Below, piece by piece: positions 9,821-26,467 of a DNA stretch of 64,000 nt; position 1 is the stretch's first letter, and every line of letters begins with the position of its first letter. Source of the DNA: an uncultured Holophagaceae bacterium (GTDB lineage: Bacteria > Acidobacteriota > Holophagae > Holophagales > Holophagaceae); contig CAIMQW010000093.1 of assembly GCA_903843705.1 (NCBI GenBank), positions 18,803-82,802 of the forward strand, in the 5' to 3' direction. The notes under the pieces were generated by a model. The model was given only the letters and a program-made list of their open reading frames with translations, had not been told where the DNA came from and ran no database searches. The translations under genes and the position numbers were made by a program.

Positions 9821-10423
9821 GTGCGATTGCTTGCCTGCTGCCTGCTGGCCCTCCCGCTCCTTTCTCAGGCCCTGGAGGAAGGCTCCTTCCGGGGTGACCC
9901 CAAGCACCTCGCTGCCGCCTGTGCAGACCGGGCCCGGCTGCTGCGCCCCAAGGACGCCAAGATGCTCGCCGAGTACGGGCGCTCCTTCCTGGTGGCTGGC
10001 GAGCGAGCTAAGGCCGAGGAGTGCTTCCAGGCGGCTCGCATTGAAAGCCCCAAGGACGCGGACGTCCACCGCCTCATCGCTTTAGCCTGGCTGCGGGGCG
10101 GCCAGCGCACCGAGGCCCTGAAGGCCATCGCCGACATGCAGACCCTGGACCCCAAGGCCAAGAACGCCTTCACCCGCGCGGCGGTGAACCTGCAGGACTT
10201 CGGGCTCGCCAAAGAGGCGGACACACTCATGGAGCGGGCCTGGATCCTGGATCCCTCCGACTGGCAAAACTGCATCTTCTTCGGCCGTGCAGCCCTGCGG
10301 AAGGCCCGTCGGGAAGCGGCCGCCAAGTGGTTCTCCCGGGCGACCCAGGCCAAGCCCACGGAGGAGCGCATGTGGAACGCCGTCGCCCTCGCCTACGCCG
10401 ACAACGGCGCCGAACCGAACTAG
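9821..10423 (+). CDS. Exported TPR protein (paralog 1)
   Basis: GTG start VRLLACCLLALPLLSQA; TPR-like repeats; similar to the next ORF. Confidence 0.7.
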   Translation: MRLLACCLLALPLLSQALEEGSFRGDPKHLAAACADRARLLRPKDAKMLAEYGRSFLVAGERAKAEECFQAARIESPKDADVHRLIALAWLRGGQRTEALKAIADMQTLDPKAKNAFTRAAVNLQDFGLAKEADTLMERAWILDPSDWQNCIFFGRAALRKARREAAAKWFSRATQAKPTEERMWNAVALAYADNGAEPN

Positions 10424-16225: not shown

Positions 16226-17344
16226 TTACAACCCGGGGAGTCCCAGTTGGGCGTCGAAGTCGGCCTGGATCTGCCGGATTTCATCCAGGGAGGCCTCGAA
16301 GGCGCGGTGCACCTCGGGGTCGAAGTGGGTCCCTGCGCTGGCCCTGATGATCCGGATGGCTTCGTCCTCACTCATCGCCTCGCGGTAGGGACGTCGCGTG
16401 GACAGGGCGTCGAAGACATCCACCAGGGCCACGATCCGGGCCTCCAGGGGAATCTGCTCCTTGGCCAGGCCATGGGGATAGCCGCTGCCATTCCACTTTT
16501 CGTGGTGGGACAGGGCGATCTGGGCCGCCGTGTGCAGCAGGGGATTACCACTGATCGGCTCTCCGGAGGGTAGGGGCCCTTCCATCCCAGAGACCAGGCG
16601 GTTGACCGGGTGGTCCCGGCGCAGGATCCCGGCCCCGATGGTGCAGTGCTGCTTGACGATGACCCACTCTTCGCTGGTGAGCTTCCCGGGCTTCAGGAGC
16701 ACGCGATCAGGAATCCCGATCTTGCCAAGGTCGTGCAAGGCGCTCGCGATGAAGATCAGCTCACACTCATCCGCGCTCATGCCCAATTTTGAGGCGAGCG
16801 GCGGACAGTAGTGGCTCACGCGGAAGACGTGTCCGCCGGTGTCCTCGTCACGGTACTCCGCGGCCCTGGCAAGGCTTAGGACGATTTCCTTGTTGGATGT
16901 TTCCAGTGCACGGGTTCTTTCCTTGACCTTGCTCTCCAGGAGGTTGTTCTGCTTCTGGAGCTCTTCCTGGTAGTGCCGAATCCGAAGCACACTCCGCAGT
17001 CTGGCCAGGAGAACCTCAGGATCCACCGGCTTGTCCAGAAGATCCGCGGCGCCGAGGTCCAGGGCGCGCCGCTTGAGGGTCTGGTCCTGCAGCCCCGTGA
17101 CGATGATGACGGGCGGCCCGCCGCTCTCGAGCGCGTGGATCCGGGAGAGGAGCTCGATCCCGTCCATCCCCGGCATCTTCACATCGCTGATGACCACGTC
17201 CACCGGATGGTCCTGGAGGTAGTCCAAGACCGCCTCGGCCGACTCGAAGAACCGCAGCTCCCAGTCCTCACGAAGGTCCTGCAGTGAACGGCGGTAGCCG
17301 CTCAGGATATGGGGCTCATCATCCACAAATACAAGGGTGCGCAT
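16226..17344 (-). CDS. Response regulator with HD-GYP phosphodiesterase domain
   Basis: REC domain TLVFVDDEPHILSGYRRSL...DVVISDVKMPGMDG; HD-GYP HDLGKIGIPD...HHEKWNGSGYPHGL. Start could be 17353. Confidence 0.93.
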   Translation of the reverse strand: MRTLVFVDDEPHILSGYRRSLQDLREDWELRFFESAEAVLDYLQDHPVDVVISDVKMPGMDGIELLSRIHALESGGPPVIIVTGLQDQTLKRRALDLGAADLLDKPVDPEVLLARLRSVLRIRHYQEELQKQNNLLESKVKERTRALETSNKEIVLSLARAAEYRDEDTGGHVFRVSHYCPPLASKLGMSADECELIFIASALHDLGKIGIPDRVLLKPGKLTSEEWVIVKQHCTIGAGILRRDHPVNRLVSGMEGPLPSGEPISGNPLLHTAAQIALSHHEKWNGSGYPHGLAKEQIPLEARIVALVDVFDALSTRRPYREAMSEDEAIRIIRASAGTHFDPEVHRAFEASLDEIRQIQADFDAQLGLPGL

Positions 17345-17410
17345 CGGGCTCATCTCTCTGCTGTCTGGTGAAGTAGAACAGGTGCCCATTCATTAAACTA
17401 AATTTTGATT

Positions 17411-18565
17411 TCAATCCACCCAGACTTCGGGGGGCACAGGGTGACTGAGGAAGTGGGTCATCCCCTCGCTGAGGCCGTAGGCCCCGGTGGTGCCGAAGGC
17501 GAGGAGGTCCCCCGGCGCCAACTCGGGCAGCCGCACGTCCCCCAGTCGGTCCAGGCTGGTGCACAGGGGTCCCGCCAGGGTGAAGGGGACCTGACCCTCG
17601 GGCTTGCCCACAGCCTTCACCGGGAAGGGCTGCCCTGTAAGCAGGGGCCGGAGCAGGTGGTTGATGCCGCCTTCCAGGATGGCGAAGCGGATGCCCCGGC
17701 TCTCTTTGACGCGCACCACGCGGGCCAGGTAGACGCCGCAGGGACCCGCGAGGAAGCGGCCTGGTTCCAGGATCAGCTCCCCGGTGAACCAGGGGTGGCG
17801 CTCCAGCAGGTCAGACAGCCCCCGGCCAAGGACCGCAAGATCCAAGGGGGCCTCCTCCGACGCATAGGGCACACCCAGGCCTCCGCCCAAATCAATCTGC
17901 TCGAAGACGAGGCCATGGGTGGCGCAGAGGCGCCGGGCCAGCTCCAGCACGGCGCTGTGGATGGCCAGCAGCTTGGCCGCGTCACGCTGATTGCTGGCCG
18001 CAAACACATGCAGGCCACGGATGCGGACGTGGCGCAGCGTGACGGCCCGGGCCAACACCGCCGGAACATCCTCCTCGTCCACCCCGAAGGCCGAGGGGCC
18101 GCTGCCGCCGATGATGCGGTTGCCCTCGGTGATATCGATGGCTGGATGCACCCGCAGGTTCACGGACACCTCGGCCTGGGCCAGCTCGTCGATGCGGGCC
18201 AGGTCCTCCCAGCCCTCGGCTTGGACGCGGACCCCCATGGCCAGGGCCTTCCGCAGCTCCGGTCCCCGTTTGCCGGGACCCGCAAAGAAGGCTCGGCCCG
18301 GCGGGAGCGCCAGGGCCTCCACCTTCTCCAGCTCGCCGATGGAGGCGCAATCAAAGCTGGCGCCCAGGGTCGCGAAGCGGCGCAGCAGGGCGGGATGCGA
18401 GTTTGCCTTCACCGCGAAGGCCAGCCGCACCCGAGCAGGCAGCACCGCGCGCAGCCCCGCAAGCTGCTCCTCCGCCACCCGCCCCGAGTAGGCGAAGCAG
18501 GGCGTGCCGTGGGCCTCCGCCAGGGTCTGGCACTGCGCGTCGTTGAAGGCGAAGAGGGGGTTCAT
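17411..18565 (-). CDS. lysA: Diaminopimelate decarboxylase
   Basis: Fold type III PLP decarboxylase; GTPCFAYSGRVAEEQL...FAVKANSHPALLR...DLGGGLGVPY. Confidence 0.9.
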   Translation of the reverse strand: MNPLFAFNDAQCQTLAEAHGTPCFAYSGRVAEEQLAGLRAVLPARVRLAFAVKANSHPALLRRFATLGASFDCASIGELEKVEALALPPGRAFFAGPGKRGPELRKALAMGVRVQAEGWEDLARIDELAQAEVSVNLRVHPAIDITEGNRIIGGSGPSAFGVDEEDVPAVLARAVTLRHVRIRGLHVFAASNQRDAAKLLAIHSAVLELARRLCATHGLVFEQIDLGGGLGVPYASEEAPLDLAVLGRGLSDLLERHPWFTGELILEPGRFLAGPCGVYLARVVRVKESRGIRFAILEGGINHLLRPLLTGQPFPVKAVGKPEGQVPFTLAGPLCTSLDRLGDVRLPELAPGDLLAFGTTGAYGLSEGMTHFLSHPVPPEVWVD

Positions 18566-18575
18566 CACGGGACCT

Positions 18576-19691
18576 TTAACTGAGCCAATGCGGCGCGAGC
18601 CGCTTGACGCCTTCGCGCAGCTGCTCGGGGGTGGCGGCGAAGCTGAGGCGGGCGTGACCGCGGCCGGTTTCGCCAAAGGCGAGGCCCGGGATGAGCACCA
18701 CCTTGGCCTCATCCCGCAGCTTGAGGGCGAATGCCAGGGGGTCCGCATGGGCCGACTCTGGCAGGGGCATGAAGTGGTAGAAGGTGCCGTCCGGGGGCGT
18801 CACCGTCTGGCCCAGGTGCTCCCGCAGGGCCTCCGCCAAGGCCTCCCACCGGCCACGGATGGCGGCACGGGCCTCGGCGAGGATGGATTCAGAGTGTTCA
18901 AGCAGAGCCAGGGCCGCCCACTGAGCGGGCGTGGCCGTGCCGGTCACCGCGTAGCCATGGACCACCCTGGCCGGGGTCAGCCAGACGGGATCGCCGATGG
19001 CCCAACCCACCCGCAGGCCGGGGGCACCCCACCCCTTGCTGACCGAGCTCACCACCACACCACGGTCTGTCACATCCCGCAGTCCGGGGGGGCGCACGCC
19101 GAAGTGCAGGTCCCGGTAGACCTCGTCAGAGATCAGCAGCAGGCTACGGGCCAGACAGGCCTCGGCCACCCGGCGCAGCGCCTCCAGATCCCCGCCCCCG
19201 CCGGTGGGATTGGAGGGCAGGTTGAGGATCACGGCCGAGGCGTCCGGCGTGGCCGCCAGCACCTGCAGCAGCGCATCGGCATCCAGGCGGAAGCGGTCCG
19301 GCGACAGGGCGTAGGGCACCGGCTCCGCGCCCGCCATCCGGGCCAGGGCCGGGTAGGCCACGAAGCCAGGATCAGGCATTAGCACTTTGGTGCCGGGCTC
19401 CACCCAGGCCTGGAAGAGGGCGAAGAGCGCCCCCTGGGAACCCGTGGTGATCAGCACCTCGTCCACAGTGGCGCCATGGAAGGCTGCCACCGCCTTGCGG
19501 AGATCCATCAGGCCCGCGTGGGGCACATAGCCGCAGGGGCCAGGGGCCCGGAGCAGGGCCAGGCGCGCGGGTTCCGGCAGGTCCCAGGTGGGCTCACCAA
19601 GACCCAGCGGAATGGCCCCGGGCGGCGTGCCGTCTGTAATCGCCCGGATGGGGGAGGGCTTGAGCAGGGAGAGGCGGGAGGCTGTTTTCAT
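18576..19691 (-). CDS. Class I/II aminotransferase, candidate N-succinyl-DAP aminotransferase by operon context
   Basis: NLPSNPTGGG...SDEVYRDLHFG...SVSKGWGAPGLRVGW; located in lysine operon. Confidence 0.88.
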   Translation of the reverse strand: MKTASRLSLLKPSPIRAITDGTPPGAIPLGLGEPTWDLPEPARLALLRAPGPCGYVPHAGLMDLRKAVAAFHGATVDEVLITTGSQGALFALFQAWVEPGTKVLMPDPGFVAYPALARMAGAEPVPYALSPDRFRLDADALLQVLAATPDASAVILNLPSNPTGGGGDLEALRRVAEACLARSLLLISDEVYRDLHFGVRPPGLRDVTDRGVVVSSVSKGWGAPGLRVGWAIGDPVWLTPARVVHGYAVTGTATPAQWAALALLEHSESILAEARAAIRGRWEALAEALREHLGQTVTPPDGTFYHFMPLPESAHADPLAFALKLRDEAKVVLIPGLAFGETGRGHARLSFAATPEQLREGVKRLAPHWLS

Positions 19692-19712: not shown

Positions 19713-20534
19713 CTAGCGGAGGGCCTGTTCCAGAGCCGTGGCGGCGTCAGTCTTGTCATCGCGGTACTTCACGATGCAGGGGGCCGCCAGCTGAAGGCCC
19801 TGGCTCCGGGCGAAGTCGCCGGAGGCAGGCCGGGACCCCGGCACCACCACGGCGCCCTCGGGCACCTCGCGGCGCAGCTCCCGGCCATGGACAAGGTCGT
19901 AGATCACGCTGCTGCCGGTGATGACCACCCCGGAGGCCAGCACCGCGCGCTTGCGCACCACGATGCCTTCAAAGAGGCCCACGAGCCCACCCACGAAGGC
20001 GTCGTCCTCCACCACCACGGGCCGGGCACCCGCAGGCTCCAGCACACCGCCGATCTGGGCAGCGGCCGAGAGGTGTACCCGCTTGCCGATCTGGGCGCAG
20101 CTGCCCACCAGCGCGTGGCTGTCCACCATGGTCCCCTCGTCCACGAAGGCTCCTACGTTCACATAGGCCGGCGGCATGAGCACCACGCTGCGGGCAATGT
20201 GGGCGCCCCGGCGCACGGCGCTGCCGCCGGGCACCAGACGCACCGCGTCCTCCAGGCCAAAGTGCCGGGGTGGATAGGCGGTCTTGTCGAACATCGGAAA
20301 GCCGGGCCCGGCCATCTCCACCAGGCTGGTGCGCCGGAAGCCGAAGAGGATGGCCTGCTTCACCCAGGTGTTGGTCTCCCAGGTGCCGTCCTCGAGCCGC
20401 TCCGCGGCCCGGATGATGCCCGTTTCCAGGGCCACCAGCAGCACCTGGTGCATTGCCGGCGTCTCGGGGTCCGCCAGCACCTCGTCAGCGGGCCGGGAGA
20501 AGAAGGTGCGAATGGTGTTGACGTCGAGGACCAT
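19713..20534 (-). CDS. dapD: 2,3,4,5-tetrahydropyridine-2,6-dicarboxylate N-succinyltransferase
   Basis: Left-handed beta-helix hexapeptides; MPPAYVNVGAFVDEGTMVDSHALVGSCAQIGKRVHLSAAAQIGGVLEP. Confidence 0.94.
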   Translation of the reverse strand: MVLDVNTIRTFFSRPADEVLADPETPAMHQVLLVALETGIIRAAERLEDGTWETNTWVKQAILFGFRRTSLVEMAGPGFPMFDKTAYPPRHFGLEDAVRLVPGGSAVRRGAHIARSVVLMPPAYVNVGAFVDEGTMVDSHALVGSCAQIGKRVHLSAAAQIGGVLEPAGARPVVVEDDAFVGGLVGLFEGIVVRKRAVLASGVVITGSSVIYDLVHGRELRREVPEGAVVVPGSRPASGDFARSQGLQLAAPCIVKYRDDKTDAATALEQALR

Positions 20535-21433
20535 CAGGAGACTCCAGGCAGGGCACCGGTGGCCAGGGCTAGGGCTTCGGCCAGGCGGACACGGGTGGCG
20601 GCGGAGGCCGGCGTGAGGGGCAGGCGCAGGCCGTCCCCCCCGAAGCCGAGCTGCGCCAGGACGGCCTTCACCGGGCTCGGGTTGCTCTCCAGGAAGAGCG
20701 CGTCGATGAGGGGCAGCAGCCGCTGGTTCAAGCGGAGGGCCTCGCCTCTGTCGCCCCGGAGCGCGGCCGCGACCATAGCGGCGGTCTCCCTCGGAAGGAC
20801 GTTGCCCAGCACCGAGATCAGGCCCGTCGCCCCCACGGCGATAGAAGCCACCGCCAGGATGTCATCGCCTGCCAGCAGGGTCTTGCCGTCGGGCAGGGTG
20901 CGGGCTATCTCTGCCACCTGAGCGAGGCTGCCGCTGCACTCCTTCACGGCCACGATCTGCGGGTTCTCCCAGAGGCGGGCGAGGACTGCGGGGGTGATGT
21001 TCTGGCCCGTGCGGCCCGGCACGTTGTAGGCGATGAGGGGCAGGCCCGGCGCGGCGGCGGCGATGGCAGCGAAGTGGGCCACCAGGCCCTCGGCACTGGG
21101 CTTGTTGTAGTAGGGTGTCACCACCAGGGCCCCGGCGGCGCCGAGTTCCTGGGCGCGGCGGGTCATGGCCACCGCCCGGTGGGTGGCGTTGGAGCCGGTG
21201 CCCACCACGACGGGGCGGCCGCCGCATTCCTCCAGCGTGGCCAGGATGATCGCGTCCCGCTCGGTCTCGACCAGGGTCGGGGCTTCGCCGGTGGTGCCGA
21301 GGGGCACCAGCGTGTCCACGCCGCCCGCAACCACGTGGCGCACCAGACGGCGGAAGGCAGGGAAGTCCACCTCGCCCGAAAGGGTGAAGGGTGTGGCCAG
21401 CGCGACGGCCAGGCCTGAGACGTTCAAGGTCAT
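20534..21433 (-). CDS. dapA: 4-hydroxy-tetrahydrodipicolinate synthase
   Basis: ATPFTLSGEVDFPAFRRLV...PLGTTGEAPTL...YYNKPSAEGLVAHF...YNVPGRTG. Confidence 0.95.
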   Translation of the reverse strand: MTLNVSGLAVALATPFTLSGEVDFPAFRRLVRHVVAGGVDTLVPLGTTGEAPTLVETERDAIILATLEECGGRPVVVGTGSNATHRAVAMTRRAQELGAAGALVVTPYYNKPSAEGLVAHFAAIAAAAPGLPLIAYNVPGRTGQNITPAVLARLWENPQIVAVKECSGSLAQVAEIARTLPDGKTLLAGDDILAVASIAVGATGLISVLGNVLPRETAAMVAAALRGDRGEALRLNQRLLPLIDALFLESNPSPVKAVLAQLGFGGDGLRLPLTPASAATRVRLAEALALATGALPGVS

Positions 21434-22152
21434 GGCTTGCCTCCAAAGGTGAAGAGTGGGTCCAGCAGGTCAGCGGCCAGGTCGTCCATGCCGAAGACGC
21501 CCTTGCGGCCATGGAGCCAGCGCGCCGCCACCAGGGCCCCCTGCGCAAAGGGCGCCCGGGAGCGGGCGGTGTGGGTCAACTCCAGCACCTCCGACGGGGA
21601 GTCGAGCCCCACCGTGTGGGTGCCGAACTCCACGCCGGCGCGCACCACGCCGATGTTCAACTGGTGGAGATCGGGCGTTCCCAGGGTCCACTCGGTCTTG
21701 CGGGGGCAGCCCGCCAGCACGGCGGCCGCCAGGGTCTTGGCGGTGCCAGAGGGCGCGTCGGCCTTGAGCCGGTGGTGGTGTTCCAGCAGGTAGGGATCCC
21801 GCGCCGGGTCCAGGGCGGCATAGCGCCCCATGACCGTGGCCAGCCGGGCCATCAGGGCGACGGTGAGAGAGAAGTTGGAGGCGGCGAGCACGCCGATGCG
21901 GCCAGCCACGCGGTGCTCCAGATCTGGCAGGGACCAGCCGGTGGCGCCGATCACCAGATCCGTGCCCGTGGCCAGGGCCCAGTCGAGGTGGCCTGCCACG
22001 GCCTCCGCCACACTGGCGTCGATGGCCACATCCGCAGGACCCGAGGGGGTCTCCCCCATATCCACGGTCCAGGCCAAGGGCTCCGCGGCCTCGGCCGTGA
22101 TGGCCGAACCCAGGCGCCCGCGCCCAAAGAGACCGATGCGCAGGGCGCTCAA
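21430..22152 (-). CDS. dapB: 4-hydroxy-tetrahydrodipicolinate reductase
   Basis: IGLFGRGRLGSAI...GATGW...NFSLTVALMARL...EHHHRLKADAPSGTA. Confidence 0.94.
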   Translation of the reverse strand: MSALRIGLFGRGRLGSAITAEAAEPLAWTVDMGETPSGPADVAIDASVAEAVAGHLDWALATGTDLVIGATGWSLPDLEHRVAGRIGVLAASNFSLTVALMARLATVMGRYAALDPARDPYLLEHHHRLKADAPSGTAKTLAAAVLAGCPRKTEWTLGTPDLHQLNIGVVRAGVEFGTHTVGLDSPSEVLELTHTARSRAPFAQGALVAARWLHGRKGVFGMDDLAADLLDPLFTFGGKP

Positions 22153-23489
22153 GAGGCGCTCCCGACCAGCACTCGGTGCAGGCGCCGCAGGGCCTCGGAT
22201 GTGCTCCCCTGCTTGACCACCAGACTCAGGTTGATCTCGTTGGCGCCCATGCTAATCATCTCGACGTTGATGTCACCCAGGGAGCTGAGCAGCTGCGCCC
22301 CGACGCCCGGCGTGGACTTCAGGCGCTCACCCACGGCGGCAATGATGGCCCGGCCCTCGTGGACCTCGACCTTCGCGAAGACGGCCAGGTCCTGGAGCAG
22401 GGCCTTCAGGGGGACGTCGGCCTCCACGGTGAGCGAGACGCTCACCTCGGCGGTGGCCACCAGATCGACACTCACCTCGCGGCGACCGAACACCTCGAAG
22501 AGGCGAGCCAGGAAGCCGCTCTGGGCCAGCATCCGGGAGCTGCTCACGGTGAGCACAGTGACCGGCCCCCGGCTGGCCAGGGCTGTGATGGGACGACCGG
22601 TCTGCACCTCGGCGGAGATGGTGGTGAAGCGGCCGTGGGGCTTCTGCGTGTGGCGGACCGTGACGGGGATGCCGGCCTCTACCGCGGGCTGGATGGTGGC
22701 GGGATGGAGCACCTTCGCCCCGAAGGCCGCGAGCTCCGCGGCCTCCGCGAAGCTGAGGTCAGAGATCGGCAGGGCCTCGGGCACGATGCGGGGGTCGCAG
22801 GTGAGTACGCCCTCCACGTCGGTCCAGATCTGCACCTCCTCGGCACCCAGGGCGGCACCGAACAGGGCCGCAGAGTAGTCGCTGCCGCCCCGGCCCAAGG
22901 TGGTGGTGAGGCCATCCTCGGTGGCGCCGATGTAGCCCTGGGTCACCACAACCCGGCCGGGACCGAGGTGGGGGGCCAGGTGTTTTCCGGCCAGATCGTG
23001 GACCGCTTCCACCTGGGGCGCGGCTTCGCCGAACACCGCGTCCGTGAGCAGGACGGTCCGGGCATCCACCCAGGCGCCCTCGACGTAGGCCGCGAAGATC
23101 CGGGTGGAGAGCCGCTCACCCAGGGAGGCGACGGCGTCCATGCTTCGGGGACTCAGCTCCCGGAGCATGGCCACGCCGCGTAGCAGCAGCTCCAGCTCAC
23201 CGAAGAGGTCGGTCAGGGCCGCGTCCAGCCCCTCCGGTACGCCACCGGCAAAGAGCTCCTCCGAGGCCTTCCGGTGGGCTGCCATGAGGCTCCGCTGGCG
23301 GTCCATGGCTGCCGCCAGGTCCCCCCGCTCCGCGGCCTTCGCCGCCTCGAAGAGGCCGTTGGTGGTCTTGCCCATGGCCGACAGCACCACCAGCGGGGAG
23401 CGAGGCCGGGCCGCATCCACGAGGCTGGCCACCTGCCGCATGCAGGTCGCGTCCGCGACGCTGCTGCCACCGAACTTGAGGACGATCAT
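22149..23489 (-). CDS. lysC: Aspartate kinase
   Basis: MIVLKFGGSSVAD...TTLGRGGSDYSAALFG...two C-terminal ACT-like regions. Confidence 0.95.
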   Translation of the reverse strand: MIVLKFGGSSVADATCMRQVASLVDAARPRSPLVVLSAMGKTTNGLFEAAKAAERGDLAAAMDRQRSLMAAHRKASEELFAGGVPEGLDAALTDLFGELELLLRGVAMLRELSPRSMDAVASLGERLSTRIFAAYVEGAWVDARTVLLTDAVFGEAAPQVEAVHDLAGKHLAPHLGPGRVVVTQGYIGATEDGLTTTLGRGGSDYSAALFGAALGAEEVQIWTDVEGVLTCDPRIVPEALPISDLSFAEAAELAAFGAKVLHPATIQPAVEAGIPVTVRHTQKPHGRFTTISAEVQTGRPITALASRGPVTVLTVSSSRMLAQSGFLARLFEVFGRREVSVDLVATAEVSVSLTVEADVPLKALLQDLAVFAKVEVHEGRAIIAAVGERLKSTPGVGAQLLSSLGDINVEMISMGANEINLSLVVKQGSTSEALRRLHRVLVGSAS

Positions 23490-24541
23490 CGGAGGTATCC
23501 CTTCGCATGGGCCAGCTCGGCGTTCAGGATGCTGCCACCCGCGGCGCCGCGCTCCGTGTTGTGGCCCAGGAGTGCGAACTTGATGCCGAGGATGGGGCAG
23601 ACCCGCAGGCGGCCCACGTGGACGCTCATGCCTTCGTCGCGGTCCACATCACGGCGGACCTGGGGACGATCCTCCAACGTGTGGACATGGATGGGCACCG
23701 CGGGCGCCGAGAAGAGACCCAGTTGCTGGGGCTCGGGCTTCCAGGCCAGCCAGGCCTCGCGCACGGCGTCCAGGGAGGGGTTGCCCTTGAGCCGCACACT
23801 GACGGCCTCGGTGTGGCCCTCGATGACAGGCACCCGGTGGCACAGGGCGCTCACGAGCATGTCGGCCATCACCACGACCTTGCCGTTGAAGTGGCCCAGC
23901 ATCTTGGGGGTTTCCTCCTCCACTTTCGGCTCTTCGTTCCGGATGAAGGGGATGACGTTGCCCAGGATGTCCAGGCTCGGCACGCCAGGATAGCCAGCGC
24001 CGCTGATGGCCTGCATGGAGGTCATCATCACGGCCTCGATGCCGAAGGCTTCCTGCAGGGGCGCCAGGGCCATGACCAGCACGGTGGCGGTGCAGTTGGC
24101 GTTGGTGACGATGCCGCCGGTCCAGCCGTGGTGATGGCGCTGGATGTCCAGCAGGCCCAGGTGGCTGGGGTTAACTTCCGGCACCAGGAGGGGCACCTCC
24201 GGGGACATGCGGAAGGCCCCGGCGTTCGAGAACACCATGGAGCCCGCCTTGGCAAACTGGGGCTCGAGCTCCGAAGCCGGGCCGGTGTCGAGGGCGCTGA
24301 AGACCACTGGGGACAGGGCGAACTCGGGTGTGCCGTCGGCCATGATCTGGTCGCCCAGGCCACCGTAGGGCTCGCCATCCAGCCGCCAGGCGCAGGCGTC
24401 GCGGTAGCGCTTGCCCGCGCTGCGCTCGCTGGCCGCAAGGTGCTCCACCCTGAAGAGGGGATGGTTGGCCAGGCGGCGCACGAAGCGCTGGCCGACGACG
24501 CCGGTGGCGCCCAGGACGGTGACGGGGATTTTCGCGGTCAT
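23486..24541 (-). CDS. asd: Aspartate-semialdehyde dehydrogenase (archaeal/fungal-type signature)
   Basis: VLGATGVVGQRFVRRLANHP...SNAGAFRM...VTNANCTATVLVMAL...QAISGAGYPGVPSLDI. Confidence 0.93.
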   Translation of the reverse strand: MTAKIPVTVLGATGVVGQRFVRRLANHPLFRVEHLAASERSAGKRYRDACAWRLDGEPYGGLGDQIMADGTPEFALSPVVFSALDTGPASELEPQFAKAGSMVFSNAGAFRMSPEVPLLVPEVNPSHLGLLDIQRHHHGWTGGIVTNANCTATVLVMALAPLQEAFGIEAVMMTSMQAISGAGYPGVPSLDILGNVIPFIRNEEPKVEEETPKMLGHFNGKVVVMADMLVSALCHRVPVIEGHTEAVSVRLKGNPSLDAVREAWLAWKPEPQQLGLFSAPAVPIHVHTLEDRPQVRRDVDRDEGMSVHVGRLRVCPILGIKFALLGHNTERGAAGGSILNAELAHAKGYLR

Positions 24542-24544
24542 AGT

Positions 24545-25579
24545 TCAGTCTCCTAGAAAGTGCAGGGCCAGGCGGCGGTTCAGGTCTACTCCGGCCTCGA
24601 GGTCGGCCAGGCTAAGATGCTCGTCGAGGGTGTGCGCCACGGTGATGCTGCCGGGCCCCGCCAGCACCACGGTGCGGTCGGGCACCAGCACCCGCAGCGC
24701 CGGGGCGTCGGAGCCGAAGGGCATGGCCGCGTGCTCGAAGGCGGGCAGGACAGGATAGAGGTCCGGCGGCTCGTCCATCCGGAGGTCCACCGTGGCGTTG
24801 GGGGGCGCCAGGCGACGGACGTCGTCGAGGAAGGCGCTGCCAGGCACCAGCCGGGCCATGAGGTGCGCCTCCGCAGAGGCTGGCACCGAGTTGAGGGCTT
24901 CTCCGGCCCGCAGGAGGCCCAGGTTCCAGACTTCGGGCCCCAGCTTGGGATCCACGGCACGGGGCTGCTCGCGCAGGCGCTGCAGCCAGTCCAACAGCGG
25001 CCAGGTTGCGTTCTCGCCCAGCTTGGGGCTGCCGCTGTGGGCGGCCCGGCCGCTGCAGTGCAGGCAGAGGTGCATGGCGCCGCGCTGACCCGTGGCCAGC
25101 TTCAACTCCGTGGGCTCGCCATTGATGAGCGCCTTCAGGTCCTGGAGGCGGTCTGCCAGACCCAGGGCTGCGGCGGCACCGGTGCTATCCGTTTCTTCGC
25201 TCACCACCCCCAGCCAGGCGAAGCCGTCACGGCCTTCCGCCAGCAGGGTTTTCACCGCGCCCAGCTGGGCCACGATCTGGCCCTTGGCGTCGCAGGCGCC
25301 GCGACCCCAGACTGCCCCGTCCTGGAGGCGGGGCGGCAGGTAGGGGGGCACCGTGTCCAGGTGGGTGGAGAACAGCACCCGGGGCCGACCCCACAGGGCC
25401 AGCAGGTTCGTGCGTCCCGGACCCACGGGCTGTTCCACCACGGTGGCGCCCAACTCCTGAAGCAGCGTCCGGAGGCCCGACAGGCCCGCATCCTCCTGGC
25501 CCGAGGTGGTCTCGGCCGAGCAGAGCTCCACCAGCCGAGTGCTCAGCCAGGTTCGGAGGTCTGCGGGGATGGCGTTCAT
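24545..25579 (-). CDS. M20 family peptidase, candidate succinyl-diaminopimelate desuccinylase
   Basis: SAETTSGQEDAGL...FSTHLDTVPPYLPPRLQDGAVWGRGACDAKGQIVAQL...VVSEETDSTGAAAAL; first gene of lysine operon. Confidence 0.88.
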   Translation of the reverse strand: MNAIPADLRTWLSTRLVELCSAETTSGQEDAGLSGLRTLLQELGATVVEQPVGPGRTNLLALWGRPRVLFSTHLDTVPPYLPPRLQDGAVWGRGACDAKGQIVAQLGAVKTLLAEGRDGFAWLGVVSEETDSTGAAAALGLADRLQDLKALINGEPTELKLATGQRGAMHLCLHCSGRAAHSGSPKLGENATWPLLDWLQRLREQPRAVDPKLGPEVWNLGLLRAGEALNSVPASAEAHLMARLVPGSAFLDDVRRLAPPNATVDLRMDEPPDLYPVLPAFEHAAMPFGSDAPALRVLVPDRTVVLAGPGSITVAHTLDEHLSLADLEAGVDLNRRLALHFLGD

Positions 25580-25617
25580 AGCTACCTCGGCGTGCCGACG
25601 GTGCCTTCAGGAACGCA

Positions 25618-25815
25618 GTGGGAGGATTCCCGCCGCCGCGCCTCAGGCCCTCCGCGCCGGGTGACCAGCACGACAGCCGCCGGGCTTTCGCCTCAACGTC
25701 CAGGGGGCGCGTCGATGAGCCGCGAACCCTTCGGCGATTCTCCCCTTTCACACCGGGTCAGCAGGTTCATCACCCTCGCCGTGGCTACTGATGGGAACCG
25801 CTCCTCCATCGGAAC
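25618..25815 (-). promoter_or_regulatory. Lysine riboswitch (L-box)
   Basis: Minus-strand RNA: GATGGAGGAGCGGTTCCCATCAGTAGCC...GGTGTGAAAGGGGAGAATCGCCGAAGG...GAGGCGAAAGCCCGGCGGCTGTC...GGGAATCCTCC. GGAGGA/UCCUCC closes as a P1 helix, and the UGAAAGGGGAGnnUCGCCGAAG block matches the known L-box core. Sits directly upstream of the lysine operon. Confidence 0.92.
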
Positions 25816-25864
25816 GTCGAGTTTCCCACGGCTGGGTCGGTTTCTGCAAGCGCCCAGGCCCAAC

Positions 25865-26467
25865 TCAACCACCCCGCTGGGGCTTGGTCGGCACGAGGGC
25901 GTCGGCCAGGCGATGCACGTAGCCGCTAAGATCCGTGACGGCCTCCACAGCCTCTGGCGTGGTCCTGAGGAGCTGGAAGTAGCCCGTATAGGCCGCATAG
26001 GCGAGGAGGGCGCGCTGCCGGGCCTCCTCCTCGGAGAGGCCGAGGGCCTGTAAGGCCTCCCTGCCAAGGGCCAGACGACGCTCGGTGGCGCGGTGCAGGG
26101 TTGGCGCGACCCGCGGGTCCTGGCCCGACACCGTGAGCGCGGCAAAGAACTTCCCGTTCTCCACATCCTCGAAGGCCGCGAAGAGTAGCACCCGCAGCCG
26201 GCGGCGCGGATCCTGAATGCCGCCATAGCGGGCGGCCACATCCGCGCTCTGGTCCTGCTCCCAGGCCTCCAGCACCGCCTGGATCAGGTCGTTCCTGCTC
26301 TTGAAGTGCCAGTAGAAGCTGCCCTTGGTCACCCCCAGAGCCAGCGCCAGCGGCTCCACGGCCACGGCCTGCAGGCCCTCCCGGGCGAGCAGGTTTGTCG
26401 CCGCCAGCACCCAGGCCTCCCGGGAGAGGGCAGGGCTGGGGCGGGGCTTTTTCGGGGTTGGCGACAT
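25865..26467 (-). CDS. TetR/AcrR family transcriptional regulator
   Basis: SREAWVLAATNLLAREGLQAVAVEPLALALGVTKGSFYWHFKSRNDLIQAVLE. Confidence 0.93.
   Translation of the reverse strand: MSPTPKKPRPSPALSREAWVLAATNLLAREGLQAVAVEPLALALGVTKGSFYWHFKSRNDLIQAVLEAWEQDQSADVAARYGGIQDPRRRLRVLLFAAFEDVENGKFFAALTVSGQDPRVAPTLHRATERRLALGREALQALGLSEEEARQRALLAYAAYTGYFQLLRTTPEAVEAVTDLSGYVHRLADALVPTKPQRGG

Follow-up and report, generated by a model that had tools for sequence, protein, structure and literature searches.

The lysine operon and its leader

The window, a stretch of DNA of 64,000 nucleotides, derives from a member of the Geothrix group of the Holophagaceae (Acidobacteriota) and carries on its minus strand eight co-directional genes in the order M20-asd-lysC-dapB-dapA-dapD-aminotransferase-lysA, preceded by a lysine riboswitch (Table 1). 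The genes are tightly spaced, with distances of -4 to +21 nt such that neighbors either overlap by 1-4 nt or are separated by gaps of no more than 21 nt. An earlier note described this as a complete lysine operon, which is correct for the eight nearly overlapping pathway genes but does not extend to dapF, as this gene is located on a different contig and thus outside of the operon. For the first gene, the best NCBIfam match of the encoded M20 protein is succinyl-DAP desuccinylase at a score below the cut-off, and only weak paralogs of this protein occur in the genome. Two further aspartokinases are encoded elsewhere in the genome, and the aminotransferase probably functions as a succinyl-DAP aminotransferase as judged from its context. 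An HD-GYP response-regulator gene at 16226-17389 was considered as an additional operon member but does not adjoin the operon in the relatives that were examined, with the exception of one 29% match at locus L033. No similar DNA was found in plasmids.

Table 1. Leader elements and genes of the lysine operon, given as positions in the window
Feature	Coordinates	Strand	Basis or remark
Lysine riboswitch aptamer, five-helix, RF00168	25637..25816	(-)	cmscan full model; covariation and kissing loop in 37 leaders
Strand A, P1 5' strand CCGAUGG	25806..25812	(-)	also complementary to strand C
Strand B, P1 3' strand CCUGAGG	25641..25647	(-)	pairs with strand A
Linker hairpin X, GCGG-N-GGG/CCC-N-CYGC	25615..25636	(-)	compensatory changes
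Outer stem, GCGUUC (25611-25616)/GAACGC (25572-25577)	25572..25616	(-)	surrounds Shine-Dalgarno hairpin and start codon
Strand C, anti-Shine-Dalgarno strand ACCGUCGG	25595..25602	(-)	
Strand D, CCGAGGU holding Shine-Dalgarno GAGG	25584..25590	(-)	
M20 family DapE-like deacylase, probable succinyl-DAP desuccinylase	24545..25579	(-)	Pfam Peptidase_M20 and M20_dimer
asd	23486..24541	(-)	TIGR00978 over cut-off
lysC, lysine-sensitive aspartokinase 3 type	22149..23489	(-)	NF006570, 462 bits (cut-off 455)
dapB	21430..22152	(-)	Pfam DapB_C and DapB_N over cut-off; TIGR00036 below
dapA	20534..21433	(-)	TIGR00674 over cut-off
dapD, N-succinyltransferase type	19713..20534	(-)	NF008808 over cut-off
Class I/II aminotransferase, probable succinyl-DAP aminotransferase	18576..19691	(-)	Pfam Aminotran_1_2
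lysA (start taken at MNPLF)	17411..18565	(-)	Pfam Orn_Arg_deC_N and Orn_DAP_Arg_deC over cut-off; TIGR01048 below

The aptamer and its P1 helix

The lysine riboswitch claimed in the earlier note is borne out by a cmscan analysis of the window, in which the RF00168 model is matched over its complete length (model positions 1-182) with 63.2 bits and an E-value of 3.6e-14, about twice the gathering threshold of 30 bits. RF00168 is the sole Rfam family detected in the window and has one match across the whole 3.7 Mb genome. The sequence motifs quoted previously are indeed present. However, the aptamer ends at 25637, as positions 25615-25636 constitute a separate linker hairpin, and the M20 start codon (ATG, 25579) is located 57 nt past the aptamer end instead of the 40 nt originally given.

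Conservation of the element was analyzed with an alignment of 37 distinct Geothrix-group leaders. The covariation score of the RF00168 structure is 0.113 in these leaders versus 0.079 in shuffled alignments, with 0 of 500 shuffles reaching 0.113, and the pairing and covariation of the aptamer exceed those of all shuffles and slid controls. Compensatory two-sided changes are present in P2, P3 and P5 with none in P4, while the GAUGA/UCAUC kissing interaction between L2 and L3 is paired in 99.5% of alignment cells, though it is almost invariant. Linker hairpin X is paired in 100% of cells and contains three pairs with two-sided changes, a score that is matched by 0 of 500 shuffles. Folding of the leader as a single sequence is uninformative given that the RNA is GC-rich; its stability is not above that of shuffles (z of 0.58 and -0.03), and the aptamer is not retrieved when the entire leader is folded without constraints. 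The covariance model match, the compensatory changes together with the kissing loop, and recurrence in relatives (see below) thus support the presence of a lysine riboswitch that leads the lysine operon. Judged by its sequence, this segment is a genuine, functional-looking riboswitch of an ordinary kind that would bind lysine.

The element shares with the RF00168 L box, as known from T. maritima and B. subtilis lysC, the same complete consensus with five helices, the core motifs and the L2-L3 kissing loop, but differs in P1, which has a Watson-Crick center in those RNAs. In the present leader, strands A and B form four Watson-Crick pairs, two on each side of a G.A/A.G/U.U center, and this non-Watson-Crick core is nearly constant within the genus. 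A:B is paired in 57.9% of cells among Geothrix-group leaders. A GGAGGA/UCCUCC helix that had previously been proposed as P1 is not the P1 defined by Rfam and is rejected, since UCCUCC (about 25619-25624) falls within a variable segment of linker hairpin X and is not conserved in relatives.

The three non-standard P1 pairs could be viewed as signs of a decayed riboswitch that has lost lysine binding, as could the score of 63, which is below that of other Acidobacteriota (up to 119), and the apparent loss of the aptamer from one Geothrix MAG. We give this explanation almost no credence, as the aptamer core is invariant across all 37 leaders and its helices have undergone compensatory changes.

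A Shine-Dalgarno hairpin and a proposed translational switch

Downstream of the linker hairpin, strand C pairs with strand D, which contains the Shine-Dalgarno sequence, in 96% of cells. The outer stem that encloses this hairpin is paired in 100% of cells with G-U exchanges at three positions, and its pairing is kept despite sequence differences in codons 2 and 3. With strand C free to pair, the Shine-Dalgarno sequence has a predicted unpaired probability of about 0.05 versus 0.28 in shuffles. Removal of C leaves the Shine-Dalgarno sequence still mostly paired by prediction (mean unpaired 0.18), albeit weakly and with coding sequence; opening the stretch from the Shine-Dalgarno sequence to AUG costs 9.3 kcal/mol with C free versus 4.8 kcal/mol with C removed. 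Burial of the Shine-Dalgarno sequence recurs in other genera with unrelated sequences, though not everywhere, and pooling over ten leaders, one per lineage as chosen by us and with dinucleotide shuffles as the only null, gives a p value of about 6e-5. A consensus scan recognized no intrinsic terminator between the aptamer and the start codon. No sigma-70 consensus promoter was found. Upstream of the aptamer (25820-25870, minus strand) are TTGC and RTGGGA blocks that are conserved in the genus and perhaps represent promoter elements deviating from the sigma-70 consensus.

Strand C is also complementary to strand A, which suggests that A is common to P1 and to an anti-sequestering helix. The A:C pairing is present in 99.6% of cells with one position exhibiting U.G, U-A and C-G, and in the absence of ligand a forced A:C helix is on average 7.9 kcal/mol more favorable than a forced A:B helix, as would be needed by an OFF switch. 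Covariation of A:C is thin since both strands are nearly invariant. About 8.5% of shuffled versions of the GC-rich leader contain a seven-pair match of this type by chance, and the A:C duplex energies do not beat those of shuffles. With match length and duplex energy within the range of shuffles, A:C does not qualify as a statistically proven helix, and we consider it a likely one, from which we infer the strand swap.

Given a conserved hairpin that buries the Shine-Dalgarno sequence and an anti-Shine-Dalgarno strand that is complementary to the P1 5' strand, we favor a lysine-induced block of translation initiation, and assign a probability of roughly three in four to the model in which the riboswitch is an OFF switch that controls the eight-gene operon at this step. 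In the absence of lysine, strand A would pair with the downstream strand C, and C held in this manner could not cover the Shine-Dalgarno sequence, so that M20 and the tightly spaced downstream genes would be translated. When lysine is present, the aptamer would close with A pairing to B in a weak, ligand-stabilized P1, and C would thereby be freed to fold onto D within the outer stem that extends beyond the start codon. We also count in favor of the OFF switch the lysine-sensitive type of the aspartokinase encoded by the operon; against it we count the weak pairing predicted for the Shine-Dalgarno sequence after removal of C and the absence of the aptamer from the unconstrained fold of the leader.

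There are two alternatives to this switch that retain a functional riboswitch. In the first, control is exerted mainly at the RNA level, with lysine exposing the transcript to Rho-dependent termination or RNase cleavage and the Shine-Dalgarno hairpin having a secondary role. There is precedent for such control in E. coli lysC, where a translational block is combined with RNA decay, and related leaders of the KSB1 type end in intrinsic terminators composed of a hairpin followed by a T run. We nevertheless regard predominant RNA-level control as unlikely, because the region between the present aptamer and the start codon is devoid of a recognizable intrinsic terminator and because burial of the Shine-Dalgarno sequence is kept across genera. 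The second alternative holds that A:C is the physiological P1 when lysine is bound, with the switch reversed or the junction enlarged. While A:C does pair in far more cells than A:B, strand B is at its canonical place after the GGAG junction, the GG/CC pairs of P1 beside the pocket are invariant, and the other Holophagaceae aptamers examined likewise have a P1 with two or three non-standard pairs. Additionally, a lysine-induced ON switch would be unphysiological for a lysine biosynthesis operon, and we therefore view this second alternative as highly improbable.

Distribution and related systems

RF00168 recurs above the cut-off in 42 of 396 sampled genomes of the phylum, which include 24 of 27 from the same genus, 7 of 12 from others in the family and 11 from outside of the family. 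The M20 protein shares 95-96% identity with its counterparts in Holophagaceae MAGs and 75-83% with those of named Geothrix species. One of the three genus members that lack a match (G190) has kept the M20 gene at 80% identity with no Rfam match at the locus. This genome is taken to be the source of locus L073 (JAUXSE010000014.1, positions 9940-10010), a Geothrix MAG contig with an 80% M20 match and an intact operon, in which the middle of the aptamer is missing such that its first ~30 nt run directly into the Shine-Dalgarno hairpin, as a result of either a natural deletion or an assembly error. Two M20 matches (G390:C215 and G308:C221) are identical in score and E-value even though their genomes are assigned to different genera, which suggests a shared contig or a binning error in one of them.

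Two genomes carry two lysine riboswitches, one ahead of a lone M20 gene and the other ahead of lysC and the remaining genes. In G340, where the operon is split, a lysC-dapB-dapA-dapD-aminotransferase-lysA block and the M20 gene reside on separate contigs and are each preceded by a riboswitch (L033:11481-11659 and L084:4505-4684). In G316, the M20 gene is distant from lysC, and each has one riboswitch (L032:2835-3014 and L006:1501-1679). We count the presence of a riboswitch on each half of the G340 operon, and on both M20 and lysC in G316, in favor of the OFF switch. That an M20 gene standing alone is led by a lysine riboswitch supports a lysine-related role of the M20 protein. At L006 and L033, a spacer intervenes such that lysC starts about 200 nt past the aptamer.

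Lysine operons that likewise begin with an M20 gene and have RF00168 upstream are present in MAGs labelled as Planctomycetota, Spirochaetota or KSB1 as well as in unclassified ones, with M20 identities of roughly 36-60%. Their riboswitch loci (L086, L087, L094, L096, L102, L114, L115, L117 and L123) have outputs of the terminator or Shine-Dalgarno type; for example, in spirochaete-type leaders GGAGG is buried in GGGAUCUCC...GGAGGUCCC.

Among known systems, the B. subtilis lysC riboswitch is a transcriptional system and the E. coli lysC element is a translational variant (PMC13273304). The present leader probably hides the ribosome-binding site as does that of E. coli lysC, but differs in that its anti-Shine-Dalgarno strand is complementary to the P1 5' strand and that it precedes an eight-gene operon. 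An acidobacterial lysine riboswitch was already reported in 2017 ahead of the lysine genes asd-lysC in Candidatus Solibacter usitatus, which belongs to a different order of the phylum and has just two genes in this arrangement (PMC5584792). Likewise, in Thermotogae one riboswitch precedes nearly the whole pathway, but the gene order differs from the M20-first order observed here and dapF is often inside the operon (PMC5584792). Judged by title and abstract, those of the searched papers that mention both Geothrix and riboswitches concern other subjects.

This riboswitch belongs to a well-known family and is ordinary for it, apart from a switching part that is slightly unusual, and its interest rests on the unusual P1 and on the comparative set of expression platforms. 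Tentatively, and at clearly less than even odds, we suggest that the lysine riboswitches of Holophagaceae possess a lineage-specific weak P1 whose core is non-Watson-Crick and whose 5' strand is a decoy that engages the anti-Shine-Dalgarno strand, a design that may have a similar form in spirochaete relatives. If true, then the 5' edge of the aptamer competes directly with the ribosome-binding site. For a phylum that has received little study, the analysis provides a regulatory annotation of an entire biosynthetic operon, and it links a previously unassigned M20 enzyme to lysine synthesis. Finally, the M20-first operons of several phyla, with their two types of output, constitute a useful natural set for examining how expression platforms vary around a retained aptamer.
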